Of a stretch of 64,000 nucleotides of DNA, positions 1 to 16,302 are shown one piece after another. The position numbers and the translations under genes were made by a program. Position 1 is the stretch's first letter; each line of letters opens with the position of its first letter. Under the pieces are notes generated by a model. That model had not been told where the DNA came from, made no database searches, and worked only from the letters and a program-made list of their open reading frames with translations. Origin of the DNA: Rhodococcus sp. UNC23MFCrub1.1 (lineage in GTDB: Bacteria; Actinomycetota; Actinomycetes; Mycobacteriales; Mycobacteriaceae); contig NZ_JMLQ01000001.1 of the NCBI RefSeq assembly GCF_000686025.1, positions 868,001 through 932,000 on the forward strand, read 5' to 3'.

Positions 1-590
1 CGCACGACGTACTCCGCCGAGAAGGCTCCTGCCGTCGTCGATCCGTCGACGCGGTCCCGCCCGCCGTAGGTGAGGGTGGGGAACTCACGGCAGTAGTTCT
101 CCTGCCCCGCAGCGCACATGTCGCAGCCATCAACAAGTCGCAGATCTATGCGTACTTCGGCAGCAAGCAGGCACTGTTCGACGCGGTCTTCGACAACCGG
201 GTGGACGTCGACATGGCGGACGTCCCGCTCGACGCGGACGACCTGCCCGGATACGTCGCGGCCCTCTACGACATGTACCTCGGCGATCCCGAGCTGGTGC
301 GCCTGGTGACCTGGGCGCGGTTGGAGCGGACTCCGATCGGCCCCCTCTTCGCGCACCGCGAGGATGCCGGTCGCGCCGAGTTGGACGCCATCCGCGACGC
401 ACAGAAGCGGGGCACTCTCGTCGACGACGTCGCGGCGGAGGATCTCTGGTCGATGCTGGTGTCGCTCGCCGCCACGTGGGCGCAGTCCGCGATCGTCCAC
501 ACCGCGCACGCGGGTGAGAGCGCGTCCGACCACGATCGCCGACGAGCGGCACTGGCAGCGACAGCGCGGAGGGCGTTCCACGCGATCTGA
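1..590 (+). pseudogene. TetR-family regulator, 5'-partial and probably frameshifted
   Basis: The reading frame that ends at the TGA at 588-590 carries a TetR recognition helix and helix 4 (NKSQIYAYFGSKQALF, about 132-179), followed by a helical ligand domain with LWSMLVSLAATW. Upstream of about position 110 this frame does not resemble a TetR N-terminus. A different frame at positions 1-60 reads RTTYSAEKA...VVD..TR, which is typical TetR helix 1, and it lies at the right distance (about 35 codons) from the NKS motif. That frame hits a stop at 67-69. I read this as one gene with frame damage between about 45 and 115, cut by the window edge. The first in-frame start (GTG 201) would give a 129-residue protein without the DNA-binding domain. 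A sequencing error is the alternative. Confidence 0.6.
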
Positions 591-2553: not shown

Positions 2554-3684
2554 TCACGACACCATGCGTCGCAACAACCCGACAGCCTTCTTCATCCCGT
2601 AAGCCACGACGGTCCTGCGACCGTCGTCGTGCGTCCACTCGAGGAGAGCCGAACCGTCCTCCATCGATCCCTCCAACACGGTGGGTGCACCGACGAGAGG
2701 CAGCGGACCGACGACCTTGATGGACAATCCCAGTACCTCGGTCCAGAAGTAGTCGTCCGTCGGTGCGCACCGGGCCGGCACATCCAACACCGATGCCGCG
2801 GCGACCCTGCCCTGCGCGATCGCAGTGGACCAGAACGGGGTACGGCGAACCCGGCCGTTCTCGTCCGAGCCACGAGTGACGTCTCCCGCAGCGAACACTC
2901 CCGGCACCGCGGTCGCACAGCGGTCGTCGATGTCCACGCCGCCGCCGTCACCGATCCCGCTGCCGTCGAGCCAGTGCGTGCCGGGGACCTCACCGACACA
3001 GCTGACCACGAGATCGGCCGTCGACTCGATGCCGTCGATCCGGACCCCACCCACCGGATCGCCGATCAACTCGACAGGCCGGTCCACCCGGCGGACGTCG
3101 ACCGAGCGTTCAGCCGCCCGTGCGGTGATCGCCTCGGACAGGAACGGGCCGAGTATCCGCTGCAACGGCGGATCCACGTCGATGACCGTGACCGGAACAT
3201 CGCGTGCCGCACAGGCACTCACCACTTCCATCCCCAGGAACCCTGCGCCGACGACGATCGCGGACGTCGCACTCTCCAGCCGCTCCCGCAGCAGACGAGC
3301 ATCGGCAAGGCTGCGCACCACCAGCTCACCGCTCTGGTCGGGTGCAGCCAGTCTGCGAGCGTCCGCCCCCGTCGCCACGATGAGAGCGTCGTACGGAACG
3401 TCGTCACCCTCCGCGAGAGTGATCACTCGTCGCCCGACATCGACTCCGGTCGCCAGCGCGGTGACGGCGGTCAGGTCGAGATCGGACAGGTCCCAGACAT
3501 CGGACGCACCGATGCCCTCCGCGAGAACGCGTTTGGACAGCGGCGGCCGGGCATAGCAGCCGTCGGGATCGCATCCGATCATGGTGATCGGACCGTCGTG
3601 ACCCAGCGCTCGGAGTTCACGTGCGGCGGTACATCCGGCGATGGAATCACCGACGATCACCACCCGGCGTGCGGCACCGCTCAC
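2554..3684 (-). CDS. NAD(P)H-dependent FAD ferredoxin reductase (P450 redox partner)
   Basis: This 376-residue flavoprotein resembles rhodocoxin or putidaredoxin reductase. It would pass electrons from NAD(P)H to the adjacent ferredoxin and so to the P450. The N-terminal FAD fold has VVIVGDSIAGCTAARELR, a relaxed GxGxxG with Asp and Ser at variable positions, followed by the conserved RPPLSK. The second dinucleotide site is VVGAGFLGMEVVSA near residue 140. GVFAAGDVTR is the C-terminal FAD-contact motif, and a reductase C-terminal domain follows. The GTG start (3684) overlaps the ferredoxin stop codon by 4 nt. It is the last gene of the catabolic operon. Confidence 0.9.
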   Translation of the reverse strand: MSGAARRVVIVGDSIAGCTAARELRALGHDGPITMIGCDPDGCYARPPLSKRVLAEGIGASDVWDLSDLDLTAVTALATGVDVGRRVITLAEGDDVPYDALIVATGADARRLAAPDQSGELVVRSLADARLLRERLESATSAIVVGAGFLGMEVVSACAARDVPVTVIDVDPPLQRILGPFLSEAITARAAERSVDVRRVDRPVELIGDPVGGVRIDGIESTADLVVSCVGEVPGTHWLDGSGIGDGGGVDIDDRCATAVPGVFAAGDVTRGSDENGRVRRTPFWSTAIAQGRVAAASVLDVPARCAPTDDYFWTEVLGLSIKVVGPLPLVGAPTVLEGSMEDGSALLEWTHDDGRRTVVAYGMKKAVGLLRRMVS

Positions 3685-3878
3685 GCGCGCTCACGCAGCG
3701 CCGCGACCGGACAGACACTCACGGCGGATCGAGCACCGGGCACCAACTCGTCCGGGACGTCCGCGCCGTCGTAGGCATGGTGCAGCTCGCCCTCGTCGTC
3801 GAGGCTGAACACCTCCGGCGCCTGCTCTGCGCAGATGCCGTGTCCCTCGCATCGATCCCAGTCGACATCGACGATCAT
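3681..3878 (-). CDS. 3Fe-4S-type ferredoxin of a P450 system
   Basis: This is a 65-residue ferredoxin. It has Cys10, His13, Cys16 and Cys56 in a CxxHxxC...CP arrangement. In this pattern histidine replaces the second cluster cysteine, as is known for actinobacterial P450-linked 3Fe-4S ferredoxins. Acidic residues dominate the surface, which fits docking to the reductase and P450. The ATG at 3878 overlaps the P450 stop codon by 4 nt, so the two proteins are translationally coupled. A longer open frame upstream is out of frame with the P450 and lacks ferredoxin character, so the short start was chosen. Confidence 0.92.
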   Translation of the reverse strand: MIVDVDWDRCEGHGICAEQAPEVFSLDDEGELHHAYDGADVPDELVPGARSAVSVCPVAALRERA

Positions 3879-5077
3879 GACGATCTCCTCTCTGCTGCGA
3901 CCAACCTCAGTGGGAGGCGGTCGAATCGGTGGATGACGTTGTTCACCGCACGCGACGGTGTGCCCGTGAGTTCGATGCGCTCGACGCGCTCGGCCAGCAC
4001 TCGCAGCATCGTGGACGCCTCGAGACGAGCGAGCCCTTGACCCGCGCATCCGTGCACGCCCGATCCGAAGCCGAGTTGACGGGACGCATCGCGGGTGATG
4101 TCGAAGGAGTCCGGGTCGTGCCACTCGCGGGGGTCACGGTTCGCCGACGCGTAGAGCACCAGCACTCGCGCGCCCCGAGGAATGATCGCGTCGCCGATGG
4201 TCTCCTGGCGCACCGCCCTGCGGGAGAACGCACGGATCGGCGACTCGTATCGCACGACCTCGTTGACCGCGTTGGGAATCAGGGACGGATCCGCGCGGAC
4301 CGCCTGCCACTGGTCCGGATGGGTCGCGAACAGGTGCAGTGCACCGGAGATGGCGCCGATGGTCGTGTCCAGCGACGGTCCGAGGTAGTCGATCATCAAC
4401 GCCGGGCACTGCGATCTCTCGATGCGCCCCTCGTCGGCCGCGGCGAGAACGTCCGCACCCATGCTGCCCGGCAGCACCGAGCGTTCACGGACCACCCGGC
4501 GGGAGTAGGCCATCATCTCCGACGCTGCTCGGGTCGCCGTCACCGCGTGCCGGTTCAGGGGACCGAGCGCATCGAATGTCGCTCCGGCCCAGCGCAGCAG
4601 GTCGTCACGGCCGTCCTCCGGCCACCCGACGAGATCGGGAACGATCGACGTCGGGAGCGCGGTGGCCAGGTCGTCGACTCCGTCGATGCACTGCTGCGTC
4701 AGCGCCGCGTCGACGATCTGCTCGGCCTTGTCCTGCACCGCCGACGCCATCTTCCGGACGGCCTTCGGAGTGAGACGATGTGCGAGCACGGATCGCTTCA
4801 ACGCGTGCTCGTCGCCGTCACTGTTGAGCGTCGTTCCACGACCGAGTCTGTTGGCGACGGGATTCAGCGCGACACCGTCGCCGGAGACGAACGTGCCGTC
4901 GTCGAGCAGCGTCGACTTGCATTCCGCGTAGCGCGTGATCGCGTGAACCTTCTGGCGAGTCAGCCACACCACCGGACCCAGAGCCCGCATCTCCGCATAG
5001 TGCGGGTACGGATCGAGAATGGCCGCGGTGGAGTAGATGTCCTCGGTGTAGCGAGGAAGTGCCGTGTCAGCTCTCAT
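3875..5077 (-). CDS. Cytochrome P450
   Basis: This is a roughly 400-residue soluble bacterial P450. The haem-binding loop is FGSGVHGCAGQG with Cys344 as thiolate ligand. The ExxR motif is present as EVVR in the K helix. The I-helix oxygen-activation region reads GPSLDTT. The frame is open upstream to a TTG, but the ATG giving MRADTALPRYTEDIYS matches the usual class-I P450 N-terminus and overlaps the end of the flavin hydroxylase by only 11 nt. With ferredoxin and reductase immediately downstream, it forms a complete three-component hydroxylase. The substrate cannot be read from sequence. Hydroxylation or O-dealkylation of an aromatic or alicyclic compound is inferred from its neighbours. Confidence 0.93.
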   Translation of the reverse strand: MRADTALPRYTEDIYSTAAILDPYPHYAEMRALGPVVWLTRQKVHAITRYAECKSTLLDDGTFVSGDGVALNPVANRLGRGTTLNSDGDEHALKRSVLAHRLTPKAVRKMASAVQDKAEQIVDAALTQQCIDGVDDLATALPTSIVPDLVGWPEDGRDDLLRWAGATFDALGPLNRHAVTATRAASEMMAYSRRVVRERSVLPGSMGADVLAAADEGRIERSQCPALMIDYLGPSLDTTIGAISGALHLFATHPDQWQAVRADPSLIPNAVNEVVRYESPIRAFSRRAVRQETIGDAIIPRGARVLVLYASANRDPREWHDPDSFDITRDASRQLGFGSGVHGCAGQGLARLEASTMLRVLAERVERIELTGTPSRAVNNVIHRFDRLPLRLVAAERRSS

Positions 5078-6614
5078 CGGCGCGTCCGATCGTGTTCGGG
5101 GGCAACGGGCTCGGCGACGGCGGTACAAGGGTGTGGAGGGCGGACAGTGACCGCGCGGTCGCCATCACCGTCCGGTCGGGGCGGACCAGAGCGGCGGACA
5201 CCCGTCCGCGGCGTAACCATCTGCCGTGGTCGGAGCCGGGGCTGACCAGAAGGACCTCCGCGCCGCGGCGGGCGATCTCCTGACGTTGCGCAGGTTCGGG
5301 TTTCACGGTGGTGACCACTGTGAACCGGTATGGTGCCACGGCATCGAAGCGAACACCGCGCTCGGTCGGCGCGTTGGGGCACAGCGTTCCCTCGAGCCTG
5401 CGCGGCGACATCGATCCACGTCGCACGAACATCGACGGGTGCAGACGCGGAGTCGCGCTGTCCGTGACGACGGAACTCAGTCCGGGAACACGTGTCACCA
5501 CCGGGAACACCCGGCGACGCAGACCCGCGACCCTCTCACCGCCGCCGTTCATGGCCCATCCGACGGCAACTGCCTGGCGGATCATGGCGCGCGCGTGCGG
5601 TACTCGTTCCTGCTCGTAGCTGTCGAGAGCCGCCTCGGGCAGAGATCCGCCCAATACCCCGGCCACCTTCCAGGTCAGGTTGTAGGCGTCACGCAGACCG
5701 GCGCCCATCCCCTGGCCGATGAACGGCGGTGTCAGATGCGCCGCGTCGCCCAGCAGGAACACCCGTCGATCACGCCACCGGTCTGCGAGCTGGGCCCGGA
5801 ACGTGTACTCGGTGACCCGGACGAGCTCGAGATCGGTGCGCGGTGCTCGGCGCAGCCACGGGTCGAGCAGCGATGCGAGTGCATCCAGATCCGGGAAGTC
5901 GTCGACGGTCTCGTGTTCGAGAAGTTCGAATTCCCACCGATAGCGAGTCTGGCCGATGCGCATGAACGTGCCCGCGCGGTGCGGATCGCACAGCTGATGC
6001 ACCCCGTCCCACAGGCCGGGGTCGACGGGACTCGACGCGTCGACCACCAGCCACCGCTGTTCGGGCGCGAGAGTCCGCATCGTCGTTCCGAGCGCGGCCC
6101 GCACTGCGCTGTTCGCACCGTCGCACCCGAGCACCACGTCCGCCGTGACGGCGCTGCGTTCGCCCGTGGCGACCTCCCGGACGATCACCTGCACGTGGTC
6201 CCTCATCGTGGCCACGTCGGTGATCTCCACGCCGCCGCGAAACTGCACGTGAGGATTCCGCGTCATCGCCGATCGCAGGATGCGCTCGAGCTCCGGCTGG
6301 TCGAACATGTTGGCCGGAGGGAAGCCGTGGGGACGGGAATCGGGATCACGCTCGAACTCGGCGATGGTGTCCATGGCGGGGTCCACCAGGCGCAGGCCGC
6401 GTCCGGGGCGGGAGATCTCGGTGAACGCCTCCGCGACGCCGAGGTCACCGAGGATGCGGTGGACCTCGTCGTCGAGGTGGACGGCACGCGGCTGCGGGAA
6501 GATGTCCTCCCACCGGTCGAGTACGAGGCACTCGATGCCGTGCCGTCCGAGCAGTGAGGCTGCCACCATTCCGGTGGGTCCCGCGCCGACGACGACGGCC
6601 GGGTGGTGCGTCAC
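5067..6614 (-). CDS. FAD-dependent aromatic hydroxylase, MhpA/PheA type
   Basis: This 515-residue flavoprotein belongs to the phenol/3-(3-hydroxyphenyl)propionate hydroxylase family. It has the N-terminal VVVGAGPTGM dinucleotide motif, the middle DG motif (VLGCDGANSAVR) and the GDAAHLTPPF GD motif that binds the FAD ribityl chain. A thioredoxin-like C-terminal region follows (HGRWLRRGRVSAALVRPD). Such enzymes add a hydroxyl ortho to an existing phenolic OH and so produce catechols for extradiol cleavage, which fits the dioxygenase in the same operon. The GTG start overlaps the stop codon of the FAH-family gene by 4 nt. Confidence 0.9.
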   Translation of the reverse strand: MTHHPAVVVGAGPTGMVAASLLGRHGIECLVLDRWEDIFPQPRAVHLDDEVHRILGDLGVAEAFTEISRPGRGLRLVDPAMDTIAEFERDPDSRPHGFPPANMFDQPELERILRSAMTRNPHVQFRGGVEITDVATMRDHVQVIVREVATGERSAVTADVVLGCDGANSAVRAALGTTMRTLAPEQRWLVVDASSPVDPGLWDGVHQLCDPHRAGTFMRIGQTRYRWEFELLEHETVDDFPDLDALASLLDPWLRRAPRTDLELVRVTEYTFRAQLADRWRDRRVFLLGDAAHLTPPFIGQGMGAGLRDAYNLTWKVAGVLGGSLPEAALDSYEQERVPHARAMIRQAVAVGWAMNGGGERVAGLRRRVFPVVTRVPGLSSVVTDSATPRLHPSMFVRRGSMSPRRLEGTLCPNAPTERGVRFDAVAPYRFTVVTTVKPEPAQRQEIARRGAEVLLVSPGSDHGRWLRRGRVSAALVRPDRTVMATARSLSALHTLVPPSPSPLPPNTIGRADES

Positions 6615-7546
6615 GCGTACCGCACCGTCGTGCGCTGCATCCCCAGGTCGAGCATCGCGTCGTCGGTGGCGATGGTCACCTCCACGACGTCACCGTCCTG
6701 CAGGTAGGCCGGGTTGCTCGCCTGACGCTTGAAGAAGGTCTTCCACTTCACGGCCGGCGGCAGCAGAGCGCCGATGATCTCGATGGGCTTCGGTGGCGCC
6801 TTCAGGGCCGTGCCTCCCGGAGTGCCGGTCAGGATCAGGTCGCCCGGGTCGACGCGCTGGAACCCCGTCAGGGTCCGCAGCGCTTCCGTGGGTCGGTAGA
6901 TCATGTCTCGCACCGTACTGTTCTGCCGGATCTCCCCGTTGACGCGCAGCATCAACCGCAGTTGCTCGAAACGATCGAGGTCGCCGTCTTCGAGAACAAG
7001 GAGGACGGGGCCGACGGGGGTGAAGGTCGGGTACGACTTCGCCTCGTAGAACTGGGTCTTGGGCAGCTGGACGTCGCGGGCCGACACGTCGTTGGTGATC
7101 ACCAGTGCCGCGATGTGGCGGGCGACCGTCGTGTCGTCGATCGTCGATCCGACGGGAAGGGTCGTCCCCACCACGAGCCCGATCTCCACCTCGTAGTCGA
7201 GCAGGGTGACATGGGCCGGCCGGACGATGTCGGCGGTCGGTCCGCTGATCGACCCCGACGACTTCCGGAAGAAAGTCAGTGGCACCGTCTCCGGATTCAT
7301 ACCGGAATCCTTCACGTGCGACACGTAATTGGTCATCTGTGCCACCACTCGACACGGCGCGGTGACGGGCGAGACGAGCTCCAGCGATGCCACGGGGACG
7401 GTCTCGCCACCGGCCGCGGCAGCATCGACGGCCGACCGGTCTGCGAGCAGGTCCGCGGTGGTGGTCGCTGTGGTGTCCACCCGAACGGCACCCTCGCGGG
7501 TCTGCACCCACCATCCGTCGGCGGTGCGGAGAACGGCGATGCTCAT
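6611..7546 (-). CDS. Fumarylacetoacetate hydrolase-family enzyme
   Basis: This 311-residue protein has an FAH-type catalytic domain. The motif YEVEIGLVVG supplies the metal-binding acidic residues, NDVSARDVQ is the conserved segment after it, and GDLILTGTPGGT is the C-terminal signature. Family members hydrolyse or isomerise 2-oxo/enol dicarboxylic acids formed after ring cleavage. Here it would act on the product of the extradiol dioxygenase. The ATG at 7546 overlaps the dioxygenase stop codon, and an upstream in-frame start (7693) would run deep into that gene, so it was rejected. No MhpC-type carbon-carbon hydrolase is present, so this enzyme may take that step. Confidence 0.88.
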   Translation of the reverse strand: MSIAVLRTADGWWVQTREGAVRVDTTATTTADLLADRSAVDAAAAGGETVPVASLELVSPVTAPCRVVAQMTNYVSHVKDSGMNPETVPLTFFRKSSGSISGPTADIVRPAHVTLLDYEVEIGLVVGTTLPVGSTIDDTTVARHIAALVITNDVSARDVQLPKTQFYEAKSYPTFTPVGPVLLVLEDGDLDRFEQLRLMLRVNGEIRQNSTVRDMIYRPTEALRTLTGFQRVDPGDLILTGTPGGTALKAPPKPIEIIGALLPPAVKWKTFFKRQASNPAYLQDGDVVEVTIATDDAMLDLGMQRTTVRYA

Positions 7547-8709
7547 GTCGAGGCTACTTTCATCAGGCCGAGAAGGCGTTCGGAGTCGAATTCGTTGTCG
7601 CTGCGCAGTCCGGTGAGGATGGATCGCAGTTCCGACAGGGACCGCTTGTTCGGTGCGATCCCCAGGAAGTCCTTGCTCGCGGGTGGTCCCCACTGCGCGA
7701 GACCGGACGCCGTCATCGGCGCCCAGCCCGGTTCGAGCGTGGCGTCGAAGCGGTCACCGTCGCTGAAGTGCTCGACGAGGAAGCCGTCCGGGTCGCGCCA
7801 GTAGTCGAAGATCTGACTGCCCTGGATGTGCCGACCGATCCCCCACGAGTGCCGGTAGCCGCGCTCGGTGAGATAGCGGCTCCCCGCACCGATGGCGTCG
7901 ATATCGCACACCTGGTATGCCGAGTGGACGTAGCGGTCCGACGGCCCCAGCGTCATCGCGAGCGTGTGGTGGTCGGTCGGTTCGGACCCCCGGTCGCAGC
8001 GGATGAAACTCATGACCGGTCCGCGGTGACGCTGCCCGTCGTAGTAGAGGAAATCGCTGACGATCAGGCCCAGGTGTTCGAGGTACCAGGTCAGATTCTC
8101 GAGATAACGCGTGCGCTGCAGCACCACGTGACCGAGCCGCTCCACGAGGGCGGGCTCGTGCGGTGGCCGCTGCGTGGCATTGGTGCGCGTGATCCCCGCG
8201 TCGTCGAGCGCCCCGAAGTTGTAGTCGTGGGTGCGCTGACCCGGCAGTGGGCGACCGTCGTCGAGATCGGCGACCACCCGCACCGGCTGGCCGCTCGGAT
8301 CCGTCACGGTCACCCCGATCCCCCCGATCGAGTCGGGCAGCCGCTCGACGCGATGACCCGTCGCGCGGGCGAGGCGCAGCACGTCGGCGGACTCGGCGGC
8401 ACGGAAGGCGGCACCGACGTAGGACGTCCGGCGCCCCTTGCGGATGATGACGCACGGCGCTCCGTCAGCCAGCCCGCGCAGATACAACTCGTCATCGGTC
8501 CGCACGGTGACTCCGAAGCCGAATGCTTCCGCGAACGTCTGCGCGCGGTCCAGGTCGGGCTTGCGGAACTCGAGCCAGGCGATGTCCTGGACCTTGATCA
8601 CCGGGTTCATCGCACGACCGGGATGCTCACCCGGCAACGCACCCTGATCGACGTGCATCCCCTGATGCCCGTCGACGTCGCGAGTTCGGTGCGCGTGATC
8701 GATAGTCAT
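7543..8709 (-). CDS. Extradiol ring-cleavage dioxygenase (type I, VOC fold)
   Basis: This 388-residue protein has two vicinal-oxygen-chelate modules, like catechol 2,3-dioxygenase and 2,3-dihydroxybiphenyl 1,2-dioxygenase. The C-terminal module carries a plausible 2-His-1-Glu iron site: His194 (LGHVVLQ), His248 (TDHHTLAM) and Glu313 (DGFLVEHF). It would cleave a catechol made by the flavin hydroxylase or P450. The start is supported by AGGAG six bases upstream. An internal ATG at residue 34 precedes the first VOC module and is an alternative. The length is greater than the usual 290-310 residues because of N- and C-terminal extensions. It is the first gene of the minus-strand operon. Confidence 0.88.
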   Translation of the reverse strand: MTIDHAHRTRDVDGHQGMHVDQGALPGEHPGRAMNPVIKVQDIAWLEFRKPDLDRAQTFAEAFGFGVTVRTDDELYLRGLADGAPCVIIRKGRRTSYVGAAFRAAESADVLRLARATGHRVERLPDSIGGIGVTVTDPSGQPVRVVADLDDGRPLPGQRTHDYNFGALDDAGITRTNATQRPPHEPALVERLGHVVLQRTRYLENLTWYLEHLGLIVSDFLYYDGQRHRGPVMSFIRCDRGSEPTDHHTLAMTLGPSDRYVHSAYQVCDIDAIGAGSRYLTERGYRHSWGIGRHIQGSQIFDYWRDPDGFLVEHFSDGDRFDATLEPGWAPMTASGLAQWGPPASKDFLGIAPNKRSLSELRSILTGLRSDNEFDSERLLGLMKVAST

Positions 8710-8771
8710 GGCCGCTCCTGAAGTAGATGATCACATCGTCACTCATGATCGGATCGCCCGTCAAGACTTTC

Positions 8772-8785
8772 TGATGAAATCATCA
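8772..8785. promoter_or_regulatory. Candidate operator: TGATGA-AA-TCATCA
   Basis: A perfect 6-bp inverted repeat with a 2-bp spacer lies 63-76 nt upstream of the dioxygenase start. A related motif, GATGATCACATC (from about 8726), sits closer to the gene. This is a good place for the operon regulator to bind. The regulator itself is not identifiable in the window. Confidence 0.5.
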
Positions 8786-8942: not shown

Positions 8943-10160
8943 GTGCCTTCCACCACCGAACGTCGACCGCTGCCCTTCCTCGTCTCCGTCCTGGCGATGG
9001 GCACGTTCCTCATGGGCACGTCCGAGTTCGTCGTGGCCGGGTTGCTGCCCGACATCGCCGGCGACCTGGCCATCGGGATCTCCGAGGCGGGTCTCCTGGT
9101 CACGGCATTCGCGATCGGCATGATCGCCACGCCGGCGGTGGCGGTGGCGGTGCTGCGAGTTCCCGAGCGCACGACGCTGCTGCTCTCGCTCGCCGTGTTC
9201 GCCGCCGGACATGTCGTCGTGGCACTCACCGACGAGCTCTCCGTCGTCCTCGTCGCCCGCTTCGTGACCGCGCTGGTCACGGGGGCGTTCTGGTCGATCG
9301 CAGCGTCCGTCGGTGCTCGAGTGTCCGGCCCGGACGACGCCGCGCGTGCCATCGGCATGGTCCTCAGCGGCGGCATCCTGGCGACCGTCATCGGCGTGCC
9401 CCTCGGGTCCGTCGCCGGTCAGCTCGTCGGGTGGCGTGGCCCGTTCTGGATCCTCGCCGGGCTGGCGCTGCTCGCGACCGTTCCCGTCGCTCGCATCGTT
9501 CCCGGCGGTCGCTCCGCCTCGACCACCGTCCCGCTGCGAGAGCAGACGGCGGCACTGATGTCGCGGCGCCTGTGGGTGGTCATGGCTGCCTGCGTCCTCG
9601 TCACCTCGGCCGTGATGTCCACCTACTCGTTCATCGCCCCGCTGCTGACGGAGCGCGCGGGCCTGTCCGCCGAACTCCTCCCGGTGGGTCTCGCGATCTT
9701 CGGCGTCGGGGCCGTCACCGGCACACTCGGCAGTGGCCGGCTCGCGGGCCGCGCGCCGTACGGGACTGCTCTGAGCGGGGGCATCGCCGTCGTGGCAGCA
9801 CTCGCCCTGCTCGGCGCGGTGTCGGACCACGCCGCACCGGCGATCGCACTTCTCGCGATCGCCGGTCTCGCCGGTCTCGGCATGAACCCGGTCCTCATGT
9901 CGATGGCCGTCAGGTTCGCCGAGGGCGCACCCACCCTGGCCACGTCGCTGTGCACGTCCATGTTCAACCTCGGCACCGCGATGGGGAGTGCGGTCACCGC
10001 GCGGGCCATCGGCGTCTTCGGCCCGGCCTCGATCCCGGTCGTCGGCGCAGCGTTCGCCGCCGCGCTGCTCGTTCCGCTGGCTACCCTCGTGATCATGGCC
10101 AGGCCCGGACACGGCCACCGCGCCGGCACCACCCCGCAGCACGACGCACTGGTGTCCTGA
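8943..10160 (+). CDS. MFS transporter, DHA1/AraJ-like exporter
   Basis: This is a roughly 405-residue, twelve-helix major facilitator protein. The N-terminal helix reads LPFLVSVLAMGTFLMGTSEF, the hallmark of the DHA1 sugar/drug exporter subgroup that includes AraJ and Cmx-like proteins. The conserved segment ILATVIGVPLGSVAGQ of helix 5 follows. The GTG at 8943 gives a short cytosolic N-terminus. The frame stays open to 8790, but that would translate the hairpin region, so it was rejected. No strong ribosome binding site is visible. A 6-bp inverted repeat (CGTCGA-TAGCG-TCGACG, 8923-8939) sits immediately upstream of the start. It may form a unit with the following dehydrogenases. Confidence 0.85.
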   Translation: MPSTTERRPLPFLVSVLAMGTFLMGTSEFVVAGLLPDIAGDLAIGISEAGLLVTAFAIGMIATPAVAVAVLRVPERTTLLLSLAVFAAGHVVVALTDELSVVLVARFVTALVTGAFWSIAASVGARVSGPDDAARAIGMVLSGGILATVIGVPLGSVAGQLVGWRGPFWILAGLALLATVPVARIVPGGRSASTTVPLREQTAALMSRRLWVVMAACVLVTSAVMSTYSFIAPLLTERAGLSAELLPVGLAIFGVGAVTGTLGSGRLAGRAPYGTALSGGIAVVAALALLGAVSDHAAPAIALLAIAGLAGLGMNPVLMSMAVRFAEGAPTLATSLCTSMFNLGTAMGSAVTARAIGVFGPASIPVVGAAFAAALLVPLATLVIMARPGHGHRAGTTPQHDALVS

Positions 10161-10188
10161 CTTCCACTCGATCAGAGGAGCAACGACC

Positions 10189-10851
10189 ATGACCACGATC
10201 GCCATCATCGGTGCGGGTGAGGGACTCGGAGCCGCCGTCGCTCGCCGCTTCGGCCGCGAGGGGTTCTCGGTCGCCCTGATCTCACGAGAGCAGGGCAATG
10301 TCGACCGCATCGCCGACTCGCTGGGCGATGCCGGGATCACCGCCGCGGGCTTCGCGGCCGACGTCCGGAACCCCGAGTCCCTGACCACCGCGCTGGACTC
10401 GGCGGCCGAGCGACTCGGACCGATCGAGGTGCTGCAGTACAGCCCTGTCCCGGCAAGGGAATTCATGAAGCCGGTCCTCGAGACACGCGTGGCCGATCTC
10501 GTCGGTCCGGTCGAGTTCTCCATCTACGGACCCGTCACCGCGGTGAACTGGGCACTGCCGGGAATGCGGTCGCTGGGACGCGGCACCGTGCTGTTCGTGA
10601 ACGGAGGCAGTGCAGTTCGTCCCGGCGCGACCGTCGCCGGGACCTCGGTCGCCTTCGCCGGCGAGAGTGCCTACGCCCAACTGCTGCACGACGCACTCGC
10701 ACCGGAGGGGCTGCACGTCGGCCAGCTGATCATTCCGCGGGGCATCGGCGCGGGTGAGCCGTCGCACGAACCGGACGCGCTCGCGGAACTATTGTGGACC
10801 ATGCACACCGAGCGCGGCGAATTCCGCACGTTCGCAGCACCTCTGGACTGA
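10189..10851 (+). CDS. Atypical SDR-fold protein lacking the YxxxK catalytic pair
   Basis: This 220-residue protein has an N-terminal Rossmann motif (IAIIGAGEGLGAAVARRFG) and the general order of a short-chain dehydrogenase. It is shorter than the usual 250 residues. Where SDRs have YxxxK it reads SAYAQLLH, so Tyr is present but Lys is missing. The NNAG motif is also replaced, by YSPV. It may bind NAD(P) without classical SDR catalysis. A good ribosome binding site (GAGGAGC) precedes the ATG. It follows the MFS gene by 28 nt and is probably co-transcribed with it. Confidence 0.78.
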   Translation: MTTIAIIGAGEGLGAAVARRFGREGFSVALISREQGNVDRIADSLGDAGITAAGFAADVRNPESLTTALDSAAERLGPIEVLQYSPVPAREFMKPVLETRVADLVGPVEFSIYGPVTAVNWALPGMRSLGRGTVLFVNGGSAVRPGATVAGTSVAFAGESAYAQLLHDALAPEGLHVGQLIIPRGIGAGEPSHEPDALAELLWTMHTERGEFRTFAAPLD

Positions 10852-10932
10852 CCGTCCCGACGAGAGGTGCCCTGCGTGTACACCCTTCGTCAGGGACTCC
10901 CTCGACCGCCGATGCGGGTGTCGACTGGAGAC

Positions 10933-11979
10933 ATGACCACTCCCGTGAAGGCGTACGCCGCCACCGCAGCAGACGAGCCACTGTCTCCCTACACCATCGA
11001 CCGCCGCGATGTCGGACCTCACGACGTCCGGATCGACATCGCGTTCGCCGGAATCTGCCACTCCGACATCCACACCGCCCGCGGCGAATGGGGCCCGGTT
11101 CCGTACCCCCTCGTCGTCGGCCACGAGATCGCGGGAATCGTGGCCGAGATCGGCTCCGAGGTCACGAAGCACGCGGTCGGCGACCGCGTCGGCGTCGGCT
11201 GCATGGTCGGCTCGTGCGGCGAGTGCGCCCAGTGCGTCAAGGGATTGGAACAGTACTGCCTCGTCGGCAACATTCAGACCTACGGCAGCACCGACCGCGA
11301 CGGCACGGTCACTCAGGGTGGCTACTCGCAGCAGGTCGTCGTCACCGAGCACTTCGTCGTCACGATCCCCGAGGGCATCGAGCTCGACGCTGCGGCGCCG
11401 CTGCTGTGCGCCGGCATCACCACGTACTCACCGCTCCGCCACTGGGGCGCAGGACCCGGCAAGAAGGTCGCCGTCGTGGGGATGGGTGGACTCGGGCACA
11501 TGGCCGTGAAGCTCGCGCACGCCATGGGAGCCGAGGTCACCGTCCTGTCGCAGTCGCTGGCGAAGCAGGAGGACGGACTACGTCTCGGCGCGGACCACTA
11601 CTTCGCCACCGGCGATCCGGACACGTTCACGGATCTCGCCTCCACGTTCGACCTGATCATCAACACCGTCAGCGCGTCGATCGATCTGAACGCACATCTG
11701 TCGCTGTTGGCCGTCGACGGTGCCATGGTCAACGTCGGCGCGCCGGCGGAACCACTCCCCCTGCAGGTCTTCTCGCTCATCCCGCACCGCCGTACCTTCG
11801 CAGGATCCGCCATCGGCTCGATCGCGGAGACTCAGGAGATGCTCGACTTCTGCGCCGAGCATCGTCTCGGAGCCGAGATCGAGGTCATCTCCGCAGACAA
11901 GATCGACGACGCGTGGGAACGCGTGCTCGCCTCCGATGTCCGCTACCGGTTCGTCATCGACACGGCGACGCTGGCCTGA
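10933..11979 (+). CDS. Zinc-dependent alcohol/aldehyde reductase (AdhC/YahK-like MDR)
   Basis: This 348-residue medium-chain dehydrogenase has catalytic zinc ligands in [10 protein letters not shown] and GHEIAG, and the structural zinc cluster [15 protein letters not shown]. The NAD(P) motif [15 protein letters not shown] is intact. It resembles the YahK/cinnamyl-alcohol dehydrogenase group, which usually reduces aldehydes with NADPH. The ATG at 10933, with GGAG five bases upstream, was preferred over a GTG at 10867 because it gives the standard N-terminus. It lies between the SDR-like gene and an MmyB-like regulator in the same direction. Confidence 0.9.
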
Positions 11980-12041
11980 CCGCGCGAGGGGTGTCATGAC
12001 AGGGCCTCCCCCATCGCCTCCGGTCGTCCTACGCTGAATTC

Positions 12042-12902
12042 ATGGACACCAAGGCCGAGGTTCGCGAGTTCCTCATGACCCGCCGCGCGAGGTTGACACC
12101 GGAGGCAGCGGGCATCACGACCAGTGGTACCCGTCGGGTGGCCGGCCTGCGTCGCAGCGAAGTGGCGTCGTTGGCCGGCCTGTCGGTCGAGTACTACGCC
12201 CGCATCGAGCGGGGCGCCATCGGCGGCGCATCGTCGTCGGTGCTCGACGCGCTCTCGCGCGCCCTGCAGCTCACCGACACCGAACATGCGCATCTGCTCG
12301 ATCTGGCTCGCGCGGCCGACGGTGTCCCCACGTCGGGACGCCCCCGTCGCAGGGCGGAGCGCATCACCCCACCGCGCATCAGCCTGCAGTGGGCACTCGA
12401 CTCCATCACCGACGGCGTCGCCTTCGTACGCAATCGACGGCAGGATCTGCTGGCCACCAACGAACTGGGAAAAGCGTTCTACGCACCCGTCATCGGTGAC
12501 GGCGGCCGGGTGCCCAACCTGGCTCGGTTCCAGTTCCTCGATCCGCTGTCGCGGGAGTTCTATCCCGACTGGGACCTGTTCGCGCAGATGTGCGTCTCCA
12601 TCATGCGTGCGGAGGCCGGCCGGGACCCACACGACAAGGGCCTGCAGGACCTCGTCGGCGAACTGTCCACACGCGACGAGACCTTTCGCAGGCTGTGGGG
12701 AGCGCACGACGTTCGCACTCACGGCGCCGGGACCAAACGCTTCCACCATCCCCTCGTCGGCGAGGTCCACCTCGCCTACGAGGAACTGGTGATCACCGCG
12801 GACCCCGGTTCCGTCCTCATGGTCTACACAGCGGAGCCCGGATCCCCGAGCGCGGATCGACTGCGACTGCTGGGGTCCTGGTCGACTGAAGCAGCCCGCT
12901 GA
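12042..12902 (+). CDS. MmyB-like XRE-family transcriptional regulator
   Basis: This 286-residue protein has an N-terminal XRE helix-turn-helix (GLRRSEVASLAGLSVEYYAR, about 40-60). The C-terminal MmyB-like ligand-binding domain follows, with the conserved segments LAVFLRN-like FVRNRRQDLLATN, ARFQFLDP and KRFHHPLVGEVHL. In the family this domain binds small hydrophobic ligands, and the genes usually sit beside the oxidoreductase they control. Here that would be the zinc dehydrogenase just upstream. A 10-bp palindrome, TGTCATGACA (11993-12002), lies about 40 nt before the start and may be its operator. Confidence 0.88.
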   Translation: MDTKAEVREFLMTRRARLTPEAAGITTSGTRRVAGLRRSEVASLAGLSVEYYARIERGAIGGASSSVLDALSRALQLTDTEHAHLLDLARAADGVPTSGRPRRRAERITPPRISLQWALDSITDGVAFVRNRRQDLLATNELGKAFYAPVIGDGGRVPNLARFQFLDPLSREFYPDWDLFAQMCVSIMRAEAGRDPHDKGLQDLVGELSTRDETFRRLWGAHDVRTHGAGTKRFHHPLVGEVHLAYEELVITADPGSVLMVYTAEPGSPSADRLRLLGSWSTEAAR

Positions 12903-12904
12903 TC

Positions 12905-12943
12905 GTGGAATCGAGACCCCGGAATCCGGGGTCTCGTTTCCAC
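12905..12943. terminator. Bidirectional hairpin terminator
   Basis: Arms 12905-12922 and 12926-12943 pair over 18 bp with one mismatch around the loop AAT. It lies between the convergent ends of the MmyB-like regulator and the glyoxalase-fold gene. There is a short T run (GTTTCC) in the right arm but no T tract after it. Confidence 0.8.
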
Positions 12944-12960
12944 TGTCGTCATCGCGTCGT

Positions 12961-13320
12961 TCAGGACGACGCCCACACACCCAGCACGGTGCCGCTCGGA
13001 TCGGTGAAGTGGAAGCGTCGTCCACCCGGGAAGTCGTAGGGGCCGGACACCACCGATCCGCCCGCGGCCTCGACCGCCTCGGCCGATGCGTCCAGGTCGT
13101 CGGAGTAGAGCAGCACGAGTGGTCCTCCCGCCGGCGCGGGGGTCTCGACCACGGCCAGCCCACCGACCTCGGCGCCGTCGGCTCCCACGATGCCGGCGTA
13201 CGTCGGGCCGTAGTCGACGAAGGTCCATCCGAAGGCCCCCGCGTAGAAGGCCCGAGCGACCGTCAGGTCGGTGACCGACAGCTCGATGTAGTCGATGCGG
13301 TGGTGCCTGGTCGTCGCCAT
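12961..13320 (-). CDS. VOC-family (glyoxalase-like) protein
   Basis: This 119-residue protein is one complete vicinal-oxygen-chelate domain. It begins HHRIDYIELSVTDLTVARAF and ends with FHFTDPSGTVLGVW. The VOC metal positions appear mostly absent: the first His/Glu position is Glu (YIELSV), and the last strand has no clear Glu ligand. This places it among the many small glyoxalase/bleomycin-resistance-like proteins of unassigned substrate. A longer upstream frame has no VOC homology, so the ATG at 13320 was chosen. It is divergent from the alpha/beta hydrolase. Confidence 0.85.
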   Translation of the reverse strand: MATTRHHRIDYIELSVTDLTVARAFYAGAFGWTFVDYGPTYAGIVGADGAEVGGLAVVETPAPAGGPLVLLYSDDLDASAEAVEAAGGSVVSGPYDFPGGRRFHFTDPSGTVLGVWASS

Positions 13321-13494
13321 TGCCCGATCATGCCGGTCGAGCACGCCCGGCGCGTGGCCTTCCGCGGGACCTCTGTCGCCGAGTGGCAACCCGCCGACCG
13401 CACGAGTAGTGTCCTCCCACGGTGTGCCGGGAAGTCTGGTCGGCGGTCGCTTCCGCGACCCCGAACGACGTCCAGCAGGAAGAGGCACCTCGAC

Positions 13495-14367
13495 ATGATG
13501 CTCGCCGTCGACACGGGCACGTACCGGACCACAGCAGGCCGAGACGCCGTGCAGGAATGGTGCCGACGCAGACTCGCCGACTGGTCCACGCCGCACACCG
13601 TTCGCCGGATCGACACCTCGCTCGGCTCGACCGTCGTCACGACCGTCGTTCGACCCGACGCGCAGCGCTCCGTCGTGGTGGTGCCCGGCGAACTGTCCTG
13701 CGCGGCACTTCTGACGCCGCTGATCGATGCGATGCCCGACGCCACGGTGCACGTCGCCGACATGCCCGGCCAGCCCGGGCTCAGTTCGGGGGTGCGCCCG
13801 CGCCGGGGCCGGGCCTCGGCCGACTACGGTCGCTGGCTGGAGGACACCCTGACGCAGATCGGCGCCTCGCGGCCGGTTCTGCTGGGCATCGGGAGCGGCG
13901 CCGCGGCGGCCCTCTCCGCCACCTGCCGATCGTCGGTCGGCGCGATGGTGCTGGTCCGTCCCGAAGGCATCGTCCCGGTCTCTCGCCCCGATGGGCGGTT
14001 CCTGCGACGCCGCACGTCAGCGCACAGCACCTCCAGGGCGGTGGCCGCACTCTGCGGACAACATTTCCGTCCGGACGACGACCTGGTGGAATGGCGACTT
14101 CTGGTGTCGACGCATTGCGCCGGAACGCGCGCGGATCGCCACATCTCGGAGCGGCGGCTCGCGGAGTGGAGCCGCGCGGTGCCGCTCGAAGTGGTGGCGG
14201 GATCGTGTGATCCGGTGCTCGACCACCGTCGACTGGACGACCAGGTGTGGGAGATCACCGGTCGGGACACGACGGTGCTCGACGACTGCGGCCACCTCCC
14301 GGAACACGAATGCCCGCGGGCGCTCACCGCCGCGATCGAGCGGGTCGACCGACTGGTCCGGACGTAG
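13495..14367 (+). CDS. Alpha/beta-hydrolase-fold protein
   Basis: This is a roughly 290-residue protein with alpha/beta-hydrolase organisation. The nucleophile elbow region reads LLGIGSGAAAALSA, with GIGSG matching G-x-S-x-G apart from its spacing. A late Asp lies in VVAGSCDPVLDHRR, and the C-terminal His in DDCGHLPEHE completes a plausible triad. The start at the paired ATGs (13495/13498) follows CAGGAAGAGG. A longer in-frame extension back to 13009 would overlap the VOC gene antisense and was rejected. The substrate is unknown. It stands alone before the osmolyte transporter. Confidence 0.75.
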   Translation: MMLAVDTGTYRTTAGRDAVQEWCRRRLADWSTPHTVRRIDTSLGSTVVTTVVRPDAQRSVVVVPGELSCAALLTPLIDAMPDATVHVADMPGQPGLSSGVRPRRGRASADYGRWLEDTLTQIGASRPVLLGIGSGAAAALSATCRSSVGAMVLVRPEGIVPVSRPDGRFLRRRTSAHSTSRAVAALCGQHFRPDDDLVEWRLLVSTHCAGTRADRHISERRLAEWSRAVPLEVVAGSCDPVLDHRRLDDQVWEITGRDTTVLDDCGHLPEHECPRALTAAIERVDRLVRT

Positions 14368-14439
14368 CGGATTCGCGTCCACCCCGGCCTCACCGCCATG
14401 ATCGACTGACCGATCGTCTATTTCTCAGGATGTGAACAA

Positions 14440-16302
14440 GTGAATTCAGTACGATCCGCCTGGCGCGGAATACGCAAACCGGTATTCATTCCCGCGTCCG
14501 CGATCATCGTCGCCATGATCGTTTTTTCCGTCATTTTCGCGGGTACCGCGGCCGACGCATTCGAGGCCCTCAACGGGGCCATCACCGACGGTGTCGGATG
14601 GTGGTACATCCTGACGGCGACGGGATTCGTCGTCTTCGCTCTGTACTGCGGCGCCAGTCGTATCGGCAACATTCGCCTCGGCCGCGACGACGAGAGCCCC
14701 GAATTCGGCGTCCTCTCCTGGTTCGCGATGCTCTTCAGCGCCGGCATGGGCATCGGACTGGTGTTCTACGGCGTCGCAGAACCGTTGTCGCACTACATCA
14801 CTCCCCCGGTTGCCGGGGGTGTCGACGGATCGACCGACGCGGCCGCCAACCAGGCCATGGAGCTCACCCTGTACCACTGGGGTCTGCACGCATGGGCGAT
14901 CTACGTCGTCGTCGGTCTCGGACTCGCGTACATGACCTACCGCAAAGGCCGCCCCCTGTCGGTTCGCTGGCTCCTCGAGCCACTGCTCGGACGGCAACGG
15001 ATCGAGGGCGGTATCGGTCACGCCATCGACGCGATCGCCATCATCGGAACGCTGTTCGGCGTCGCGACCTCACTCGGTTTCGGTGTTCAGCAGATTTCCG
15101 CCGGTCTGTCCTACCTCGGCTGGGTGGAGACGAACAATTGGCTGACCATCGCCCTCATTGCCTTCGTCACGTTGCTCGCCACGTATTCCGTCGTCTCGGG
15201 TGTGTCGAAGGGCCTGAAATGGCTCTCCAACATCAACATGGCACTCGCCGCCGGCTTGGCTGTGTTCGTCCTGATCGCCGGACCGACGCTGTTCCTCATG
15301 CAGTCGTGGGTGCAGAACCTCGGTGGGTACGTCCAGGCGCTGCCGGAATTGATGCTCCGTACATCGCCTTTCGCCGAGGACGGGTGGGCCGGCGCCTGGA
15401 CCATCTTCTACTGGGGATGGTGGATGAGCTGGGCACCGTTCGTCGGCATGTTCATCGCACGGATCTCGCGCGGCCGCACGATCCGCGAATTCGTCTTCGG
15501 CGTGCTGCTCGCACCGACTCTCGTCGGCTCGCTGTGGTTCACCATCTTCGGTGACTCCGGAATCCTCCGTCAGCGCAACGAGGGCACCATGCTCGCCGAC
15601 GACGGAACGGTCGGCACGGACACGAGCCTGTTCCAGCTTCTCGACGGTCTTCCGCTCGCGACCGTCACGAGCGTTCTCGCCATCGCGGTGATCGTGTTCT
15701 TCTTCGTCACCTCCTCGGACTCCGGCTCGCTGGTCATCGACATCCTCTCCACCGGTGGTGATCTCGACACACCCAAGATCACCCGCGTCTACTGGACCGT
15801 GCTCGAGGGCGTCGCTGCCGCTGTTCTGCTGCTGATCGGTGGATCCGGATCACTCACGGCCTTGCAGACGGCGTCGATCGCGACCGCGGTGCCGTTCTCG
15901 ATCATCATGGTGCTGGCGTGCGTGTCACTCCTGAAGGCCTTCCGCTACGAGGTGGCCACCACGCCGTCCTACGTCCGGATCACCCCTGCCGGAGATGCAC
16001 CGCCCGTGGACCGCGCGACACCGGCGCGACGGCCGGAGCGCGGCGGTATCTCCACCACGTTCGCCGGTCTGTCACCGTCTAAGGACGGCCTGTCCACTCC
16101 GTCGGGGCTGCTCGCGGTCCAGTCGGTACCGCAGAGCCGACTTCAGATCGACCCGGACACCGGCGCCGTTCAGTACTCGGAGCACGACGAGCCGGTCGAT
16201 CCGCTCGGCGGCGAGGTCTTCGACACCCCCGAGTTCGCGGACTCCGCCGAAGGCGAAGCCCACCAACGCCGTACCGACGACACCGCGTACGACAACTCCT
16301 GA
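14440..16302 (+). CDS. BCCT-family betaine/choline/carnitine transporter
   Basis: This 620-residue membrane protein belongs to the BCCT family of sodium- or proton-coupled trimethylammonium transporters. The family signature [18 protein letters not shown] lies near residue 105, and the tryptophan-rich substrate segment [20 protein letters not shown] lies near 325. About twelve helices are visible. A long hydrophilic C-terminal tail of about 110 residues may act in osmosensing, as in BetP, but this is inferred. The start is GTG. It is followed 25 nt later by nhaA, so the two may form an osmo/salt-stress transcription unit. Confidence 0.93.

Follow-up and report, generated by a model that had tools for sequence, protein, structure and literature searches.

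A 64,000-nucleotide stretch of the genome of Rhodococcus sp. UNC23MFCrub1.1 (hereafter the window; contig NZ_JMLQ01000001.1, positions 868,001 to 932,000) carries a six-gene operon that joins a cytochrome P450 and its electron-transfer partners to genes for opening aromatic rings. We read it as a catabolic operon for a methoxylated phenolic compound, most likely one with meta-related ring oxygens (resorcinol-type), and give this reading a probability of about one half. In the proposed sequence, O-demethylation by the P450 would be followed by the action of a class A flavin hydroxylase (FMO), a type I (VOC) extradiol dioxygenase (EDO) and an FAH-family hydrolase. A broader version is more tentative: an actinobacteria-wide regulon in which one TetR repressor, acting through a twin 14-bp operator, would control a new-family P450 O-demethylase and the EDO-FAH-FMO core. 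Together these would mineralise a plant or microbial methoxyresorcinol-type compound via an acylpyruvate hydrolase, and the set would have been assembled independently in Alphaproteobacteria.

Transcription runs from the EDO gene through those for FAH, FMO, P450 and ferredoxin to the reductase, with overlaps of 4, 4, 11, 4 and 4 nt at the successive junctions. These reading-frame coordinates confirm what a preliminary description of the stretch had noted, an overlap of 4-11 nt at every junction. Pfam and NCBIfam likewise agree with it on each domain of the P450 chain, the MhpA-like hydroxylase, the type I extradiol dioxygenase and the FAH enzyme combined in this operon, and it correctly listed an MhpC-type hydrolase, an aldolase and a transporter as missing from the genes inside the operon. 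All matches of EDO, FAH and P450 to NCBIfam equivalog models fell far below cut-off and no specific name was assigned; the families are thus clear, and the specific functions are not.

A conserved core, its P450 and a shared operator

The six-gene set is not a chance assembly, and EDO-FAH-FMO is a conserved actinobacterial core. EDO is present in 28 of the 37 genomes of the genus and FAH in 48 of 397 sampled Mycobacteriales genomes. In fetched neighbourhoods the EDO-FAH-FMO order recurs in Rhodococcus, Nocardia, Mycobacterium, Amycolatopsis, Streptomyces and others. A TetR gene stands at 32 of the examined core loci, and in many Mycobacterium, Amycolatopsis and other loci an acyl-CoA synthetase gene of the PRK07529 family separates FAH from FMO. 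In a subset of loci, the core is followed directly downstream by the genes for P450, ferredoxin and reductase; the core often occurs alone, with the P450 module absent or elsewhere in the genome, and many relatives add TetR and an acyl-CoA or acetoacetate-CoA ligase. The idea that the six genes form a self-contained unit was therefore not borne out. The same core is annotated on plasmids of Rhodococcus qingshengii, Prescottella equi and Streptomyces, and a more distant core with its own CoA ligase occurs in Burkholderia and Microvirga. In P. equi, the conjugative plasmid PVAPB1533, which also carries vapB, bears a TetR-EDO-FAH-FMO core (locus 11182-15614), an arrangement indicating that the core moves on mobile elements.

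Genomes with a close homologue of the P450 also carry core genes. All 26 Mycobacteriales genomes with a best P450 match above 490 bits also carry the core FAH (hypergeometric probability 7e-28, a figure that overstates independence because the genomes are related), and their coordinates place P450 and FAH within ∼6 kb of each other in 18. An alignment scan of 84,980 named species genomes with the P450 returned 80 loci at 58-82% identity. The complete EDO-FAH-FMO core is found at 44 of these, so homologues of the six genes do not always occur separately, and a whole-genome search of 29 genomes without a complete core near the P450 found EDO encoded in every one. Among the hosts are Rhodococcoides fascians, R. 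corynebacterioides, R. trifolii, Rhodococcus globerulus, Nocardia and Mycolicibacterium, and further Amycolatopsis, Kutzneria, Nocardioides and Streptomyces scabiei. Among named relatives, Rhodococcus sp. Leaf247 has the operon closest to the one in the window (EDO 93%).

A 14-bp palindrome, TGACGANNTCGTCA, is common to the DNA that separates TetR from EDO and to that separating TetR from unlinked P450 genes. The loci, 1.56 Mb in all, contain 74 copies, and 59 of these fall within 12.2 kb of TetR-EDO or TetR-P450 intergenic DNA; most of the others are found a short way upstream of a P450 or EDO gene. The operator, TGACGAWWTCGTCA, is usually paired, with its two sites 43-44 nt apart around a conserved TTGAC (TTGACT) and the second site where the -10 element would lie. 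This twin arrangement is found at both EDO and P450 promoters; ahead of EDO in R. globerulus, neither site is degenerate. Fifteen whole genomes contain one to four operator copies each, and a reversed-pattern control found zero. In the genome of Antrihabitans sp. YC2-6 all four copies sit at two promoters, those of EDO and the P450, which 455 kb separate; TetR adjoins the P450 there, and none was found beside EDO. Linkage, co-occurrence and the shared operator thus support the earlier proposal that the P450 chain and the ring-cleavage genes serve one pathway. The operator appears to connect the P450 with the ring-cleavage genes also in those relatives that have the two far apart, and a TetR-family regulator probably governs the core and P450 promoters through it; the position of the sites points to TetR as their binder. 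Three more copies are present in Leaf247, ahead of an NtaA/DmoA-type flavin monooxygenase (L267:2694), near an SDR gene (L268:2566) and between TetR and an MhpA-like hydroxylase (L269:2643), which are possible additional members of the regulon.

The window has a diverged version of this element (Table 1). The pair spans 8728-8785 and keeps both the spacing and a -35-like TTGACG; its first site, TGATGAAATCATCA, carries a matched change in both half-sites. The relaxed motif TGAYGANNTCRTCA has only three sites in the 4.7 Mb genome. TetR stands beside EDO in Leaf247 and is missing at the window's operon, where the diverged operator may still work without an adjacent regulator gene. The closest TetR in the genome (C1:389977-390549; 41-51% identity to family members) is not put forward as the regulator: its neighbours are unrelated, and none of the three genome-wide operator matches is near it. 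A generic scan found neither a sigma-70 consensus promoter nor a terminator.

Active sites and the proposed route

Active-site residues are intact in the enzymes of the operon. For EDO, an AlphaFold model (34 orthologues, mean pLDDT 70.7) predicts the two-domain type I extradiol (VOC) fold and matches homoprotocatechuate 2,3-dioxygenase, AphC and catechol 2,3-dioxygenase (Z ∼26). None of the putative iron ligands (H194, H262, E313) varies among 34 orthologues, and the modelled fold together with this candidate His-His-Glu metal site marks EDO as a type I extradiol enzyme. Its N-terminal extension (approximately residues 1-35) is conserved as well, with H15, H19, G23, G27, E28 and R32 invariant across the 34 actinobacterial orthologues; residues 1-24 are left unresolved by the model. 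In FAH, residues E119, E121, D153 and K170 are near-invariant among 43 sequences, as are the DG and GDAAH motifs of FMO across its homologues.

The closest solved structures to the P450 are those of CYP199A4 (E ∼1e-83). At 38.3-38.6% identity, just under the 40% at or above which P450 family membership is usually assigned, the protein appears to fall outside the CYP199 family. It shares with CYP199A4 and other CYP199-type para-methoxybenzoate O-demethylases the acid-alcohol pair (D237/T238) and heme cysteine (C344), both invariant, and two ring-packing phenylalanines (F168 and F284); its gene context differs from theirs. The substrate pocket differs too. Residues R92, S95, R243, S244 and S247 of CYP199A4, the carboxylate anchor for para-substituted benzoates, are replaced by L78, G81, I229, D230 and G233. 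D230, which corresponds to Ser244, does not vary among 70 homologues and is also kept in two homologues from Sphingopyxis. Because the anchor positions are replaced and D230 is invariant, we read the substrate as neutral, perhaps a phenol hydrogen-bonded by D230. The best P450 relatives are CYP199-type aryl O-demethylases, and demethylation is for that reason favoured over terpenoid oxidation.

Other lineages provide the strongest hint at the P450 reaction, through repeated assembly of the same functions. On the Sphingopyxis plasmid pRW412a, same-family P450s (43-44% identity) flank an FMO-VOC-FAH triad that is accompanied by S-(hydroxymethyl)glutathione dehydrogenase (a glutathione-dependent formaldehyde dehydrogenase), S-formylglutathione hydrolase and BKACE. 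Aminobacter combines P450, ferredoxin and reductase with formaldehyde dehydrogenase and BKACE. Pannonibacter has a P450, 2Fe-2S ferredoxin, reductase, FMO, VOC and FAH with a TRAP transporter, the core enzymes being only distantly related. Unrelated lineages have thus reassembled the same gene set. Formaldehyde is a by-product of O-demethylation, and formaldehyde genes near these P450s therefore hint at that reaction.

In the proposed route, the P450, served by its own ferredoxin and reductase, would O-demethylate (or otherwise oxidise) a neutral aryl ether to a phenol. FMO would place a hydroxyl group ortho to the phenolic OH, and EDO would cleave the resulting catechol or trihydroxybenzene in the meta position. 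Because the ring is proposed to carry a further oxygen, the cleavage product would be a 2,4-dioxo (acylpyruvate-type) acid, which FAH could hydrolyse, releasing a pyruvate-type fragment together with either a carboxylic or a beta-keto acid. The released acid may finally be converted to its CoA ester by an acetoacetate- or acyl-CoA ligase, whose gene adjoins the core in many relatives and lies at another place in this genome. This last step is the least certain, because the Mycobacterium loci have a different ligase subfamily.

Neighbours of the core in relatives bear on the fate of the acid. A Streptomyces core includes a true acetoacetate-CoA ligase (902 bits against a cut-off of 639), that of Rhodococcus sp. 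BH4 has an annotated acetoacetate-CoA ligase and thiolase, and BKACE lies near core-type genes in Sphingopyxis, Burkholderia and Paraburkholderia. The genome under study encodes one acetoacetate-CoA ligase above cut-off, unlinked to the operon. Both Streptomyces loci add an acetoacetate-CoA ligase; in one, that of S. scabiei, the P450 module follows, and in the other a malonic-semialdehyde-reductase/nitroreductase-like gene comes after FMO. A nitroreductase-like gene is also found in the ipp cluster discussed below.

Known pathways and competing explanations

Closest in logic to the operon are hcdABC and the ipp and 'pathway VIII' clusters; beyond what these contain, it has the P450 chain and the TetR operator. 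In Pseudomonas mandelii 7HK4, hcdABC degrades 7-hydroxycoumarin, and HcdC is an FAA-hydrolase-family protein that, added to HcdA and HcdB in Escherichia coli, removes the ring-cleavage product 2,4-dihydroxy-6-oxonona-2,4-dienedioate (PMC6222606). A third oxygen on the ring is what makes this product an enolised 2,4-dioxo acid. By analogy, an FAH enzyme may replace the alpha/beta C-C hydrolase where the aromatic substrate is resorcinol-like, and the earlier suggestion that FAH stands in for the usual C-C hydrolase gains a close experimental precedent (PMC6222606). Both systems place a FAD-dependent class A hydroxylase, a type I extradiol dioxygenase and an FAA-hydrolase-family enzyme in one operon, and the co-directional FMO, type I EDO and FAA-hydrolase genes of the window are kept in its relatives. 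However, hcdABC lacks a P450 module, proceeds by ipso-hydroxylation of a dihydroxyphenylpropionate, its substrate being 3-(2,4-dihydroxyphenyl)propionate, and belongs to another phylum; the likeness to HcdA-C (MH346032-MH346034) is one of gene set.

The ipp cluster of Rhodococcus sp. D-6 (PMC12442392) and 'pathway VIII' of R. jostii RHA1 and R. ruber Chol-4, whose substrate is given as unknown (PMC6498646), also group a hydroxylase, a type I extradiol enzyme, FAH and acetoacetyl-CoA synthetase, and like the Streptomyces relative they include a nitroreductase-like gene. By contrast, the flavin hydroxylase of ipp has two components, its dioxygenase is small (211 aa) and of the BphC2 type, and no P450, TetR or twin operator is described for it. 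The MhpABC/HppABC pathway for 3-(3-hydroxyphenyl)propionate resembles the operon in the subfamily name of FMO and in its logic of ortho-hydroxylation followed by meta-cleavage, but the operon has a type I (VOC) EDO, and FAH instead of an alpha/beta hydrolase. MhpC-type hydrolase, MhpD and MhpE are absent from the operon and from its conserved neighbour families, which leaves it outside the Mhp definition. No description of the six-gene set was found in the open literature, including work on sorgoleone, orcinol/alkylresorcinol and CYP199/extradiol topics; subscription literature fell mostly outside the search.

Several observations weigh against the proposed reading. With only 38% identity to CYP199A4, and without the residues that bind the carboxylate there, the P450 could have another substrate and even another reaction. 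Formaldehyde genes were seen beside the P450 only in Alphaproteobacteria, with none at the actinobacterial P450 loci. Being unlinked to the operon, the acetoacetate-CoA ligase of this genome may serve other pathways; BKACE was sought in the same genome and is absent. The Mycobacterium-locus ligase belongs to PRK07529, and the acid set free may be something other than a beta-keto acid. The operon in the window has no adjacent TetR, and 4 of the 24 positions of its operator pair are mismatched. Finally, the literature searched yielded no substrate, induction or enzyme data for close members.

What the P450 oxidises is also where the leading alternative departs from this reading. It is unlikely, yet deserves weight, that the P450, instead of acting on a methyl ether, adds a hydroxyl to the ring or to an alkyl or terpenoid side chain, leaving the core to degrade the phenol; the terpenoid phenols of the preliminary description belong here. 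The remodelled pocket of a P450 at 38% identity to CYP199A4 would allow this, and the related ipp cluster, with its EDO, FAH, acetoacetyl-CoA synthetase and nitroreductase, degrades 2-isopropylphenol (PMC12442392). Yet the ipp hydroxylase is two-component and no P450 is listed in that cluster, and formaldehyde-oxidation genes accompany same-family P450s in Sphingopyxis and Aminobacter. Slightly less likely is an (iso)flavonoid pathway of the fde (Herbaspirillum) or ifc (Variovorax) type, in which FMO would 8-hydroxylate the A-ring, EDO would open it and the P450 would demethylate methoxylated (iso)flavones. FMO and a VOC-type dioxygenase do open the phenolic A-ring of daidzein or naringenin in those two genera (PMC11069340, PMC8552027), and many hosts of the operon are plant-associated Rhodococcoides, Mycolicibacterium and Streptomyces. 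The partner genes set the two apart, however: fde and ifc work with a cupin, an alpha/beta hydrolase or a Rieske carrier, not with a P450 chain, none of these partners is found in the operon or its conserved neighbours, and IfcA homologues are reported from Proteobacteria only (PMC11069340).

It is improbable that the cluster serves detoxification or the modification of antibiotics instead of carbon catabolism. The FMO superfamily does include rifampicin monooxygenases and polyketide hydroxylases, and RdmE and rifampin monooxygenase are among the PDB neighbours of the window's FMO, but these matches are far weaker than that to the MhpA-like subfamily model. A divergent MFS transporter gene adjoins the operon in this species but is not kept beside the operons of relatives, and ring cleavage, FAH and CoA-ligase neighbours indicate carbon recovery. 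That the P450 module is a bystander, brought to the locus by chance or horizontal transfer, is already strongly disfavoured. Many core loci lack the module, and in many genomes it has a separate site, but co-occurrence is complete (26/26 and 29/29) and the twin operator is common to unlinked sites.

Should methoxyphenol catabolism prove correct, a substrate class and a regulator could be assigned to genes that many soil- and plant-associated Actinobacteria have as a set (Rhodococcoides, Mycolicibacterium, Nocardia, Amycolatopsis and Streptomyces). The operon would also supply a P450 demethylase with a non-carboxylate pocket for the bioconversion of lignin and plant phenolics. The conserved operator makes the question of the inducer directly approachable with no prior guess at the pathway.

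Coordinates and surroundings of the operon

Table 1. Genes of the operon and elements of its upstream region, in window positions
Feature	Position	Strand	Basis
Type I (VOC) extradiol dioxygenase (EDO), 388 aa	7543-8709	minus	Pfam Glyoxalase; partial HpaD/BphC/C23O model matches
FAH-family hydrolase, 311 aa; probable acylpyruvate-type C-C hydrolase	6611-7546	minus	PF01557 (FAA_hydrolase), 155 bits
Class A flavin hydroxylase (FMO), MhpA-like subfamily PRK06183.1-3, 515 aa	5067-6614	minus	FAD_binding_3; 578 bits against cut-off 390
Cytochrome P450, 400 aa	3875-5077	minus	Pfam p450; nearest solved relatives CYP199A4
Ferredoxin, single-cluster, 65 aa, C-x2-H-x2-C...CP type	3681-3878	minus	PF13459 (Fer4_15) and sequence
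FAD/NAD(P)H ferredoxin reductase, 376 aa	2554-3684	minus	Pyr_redox_2; best NCBIfam match is HcaD-type reductase
Operator site 1, TGATGAAATCATCA, inverted repeat TGATGA/TCATCA	8772-8785		Matches regulon motif TGAYGANNTCRTCA
Putative -35 element TTGACG between operator sites	8759-8764	minus	Aligned with TTGAC in 13/13 compared relatives' promoters
Degenerate operator site 2, TGACGATGTGATCA, 44 nt from site 1	8728-8741		Spacing as in relatives' intact twin sites (43-44 nt)

Upstream of the operon, the divergent MFS gene (8943-10160) begins ∼230 bp away. It opens a plus-strand set of MFS, SDR and zinc alcohol dehydrogenase genes (8943-11979) that, in this species, stands where relatives have TetR beside EDO; the neighbourhood comparison did not find this set kept beside relatives' operons. 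At the other end, window positions 1-590 encode a TetR-type regulator with a clear TetR_C_21 C-terminal domain, whose DNA-binding part is readable only from about position 117. The frame upstream is not TetR-like, and the gene may be broken. A second VOC-FAH-FMO-SDR cluster lies in the same genome ∼3-7 kb to the left of the window start (C1:861023-865245). Its FAH is 55% identical to that of the operon, and similar FAH/FMO pairs occur near the core in several relatives.

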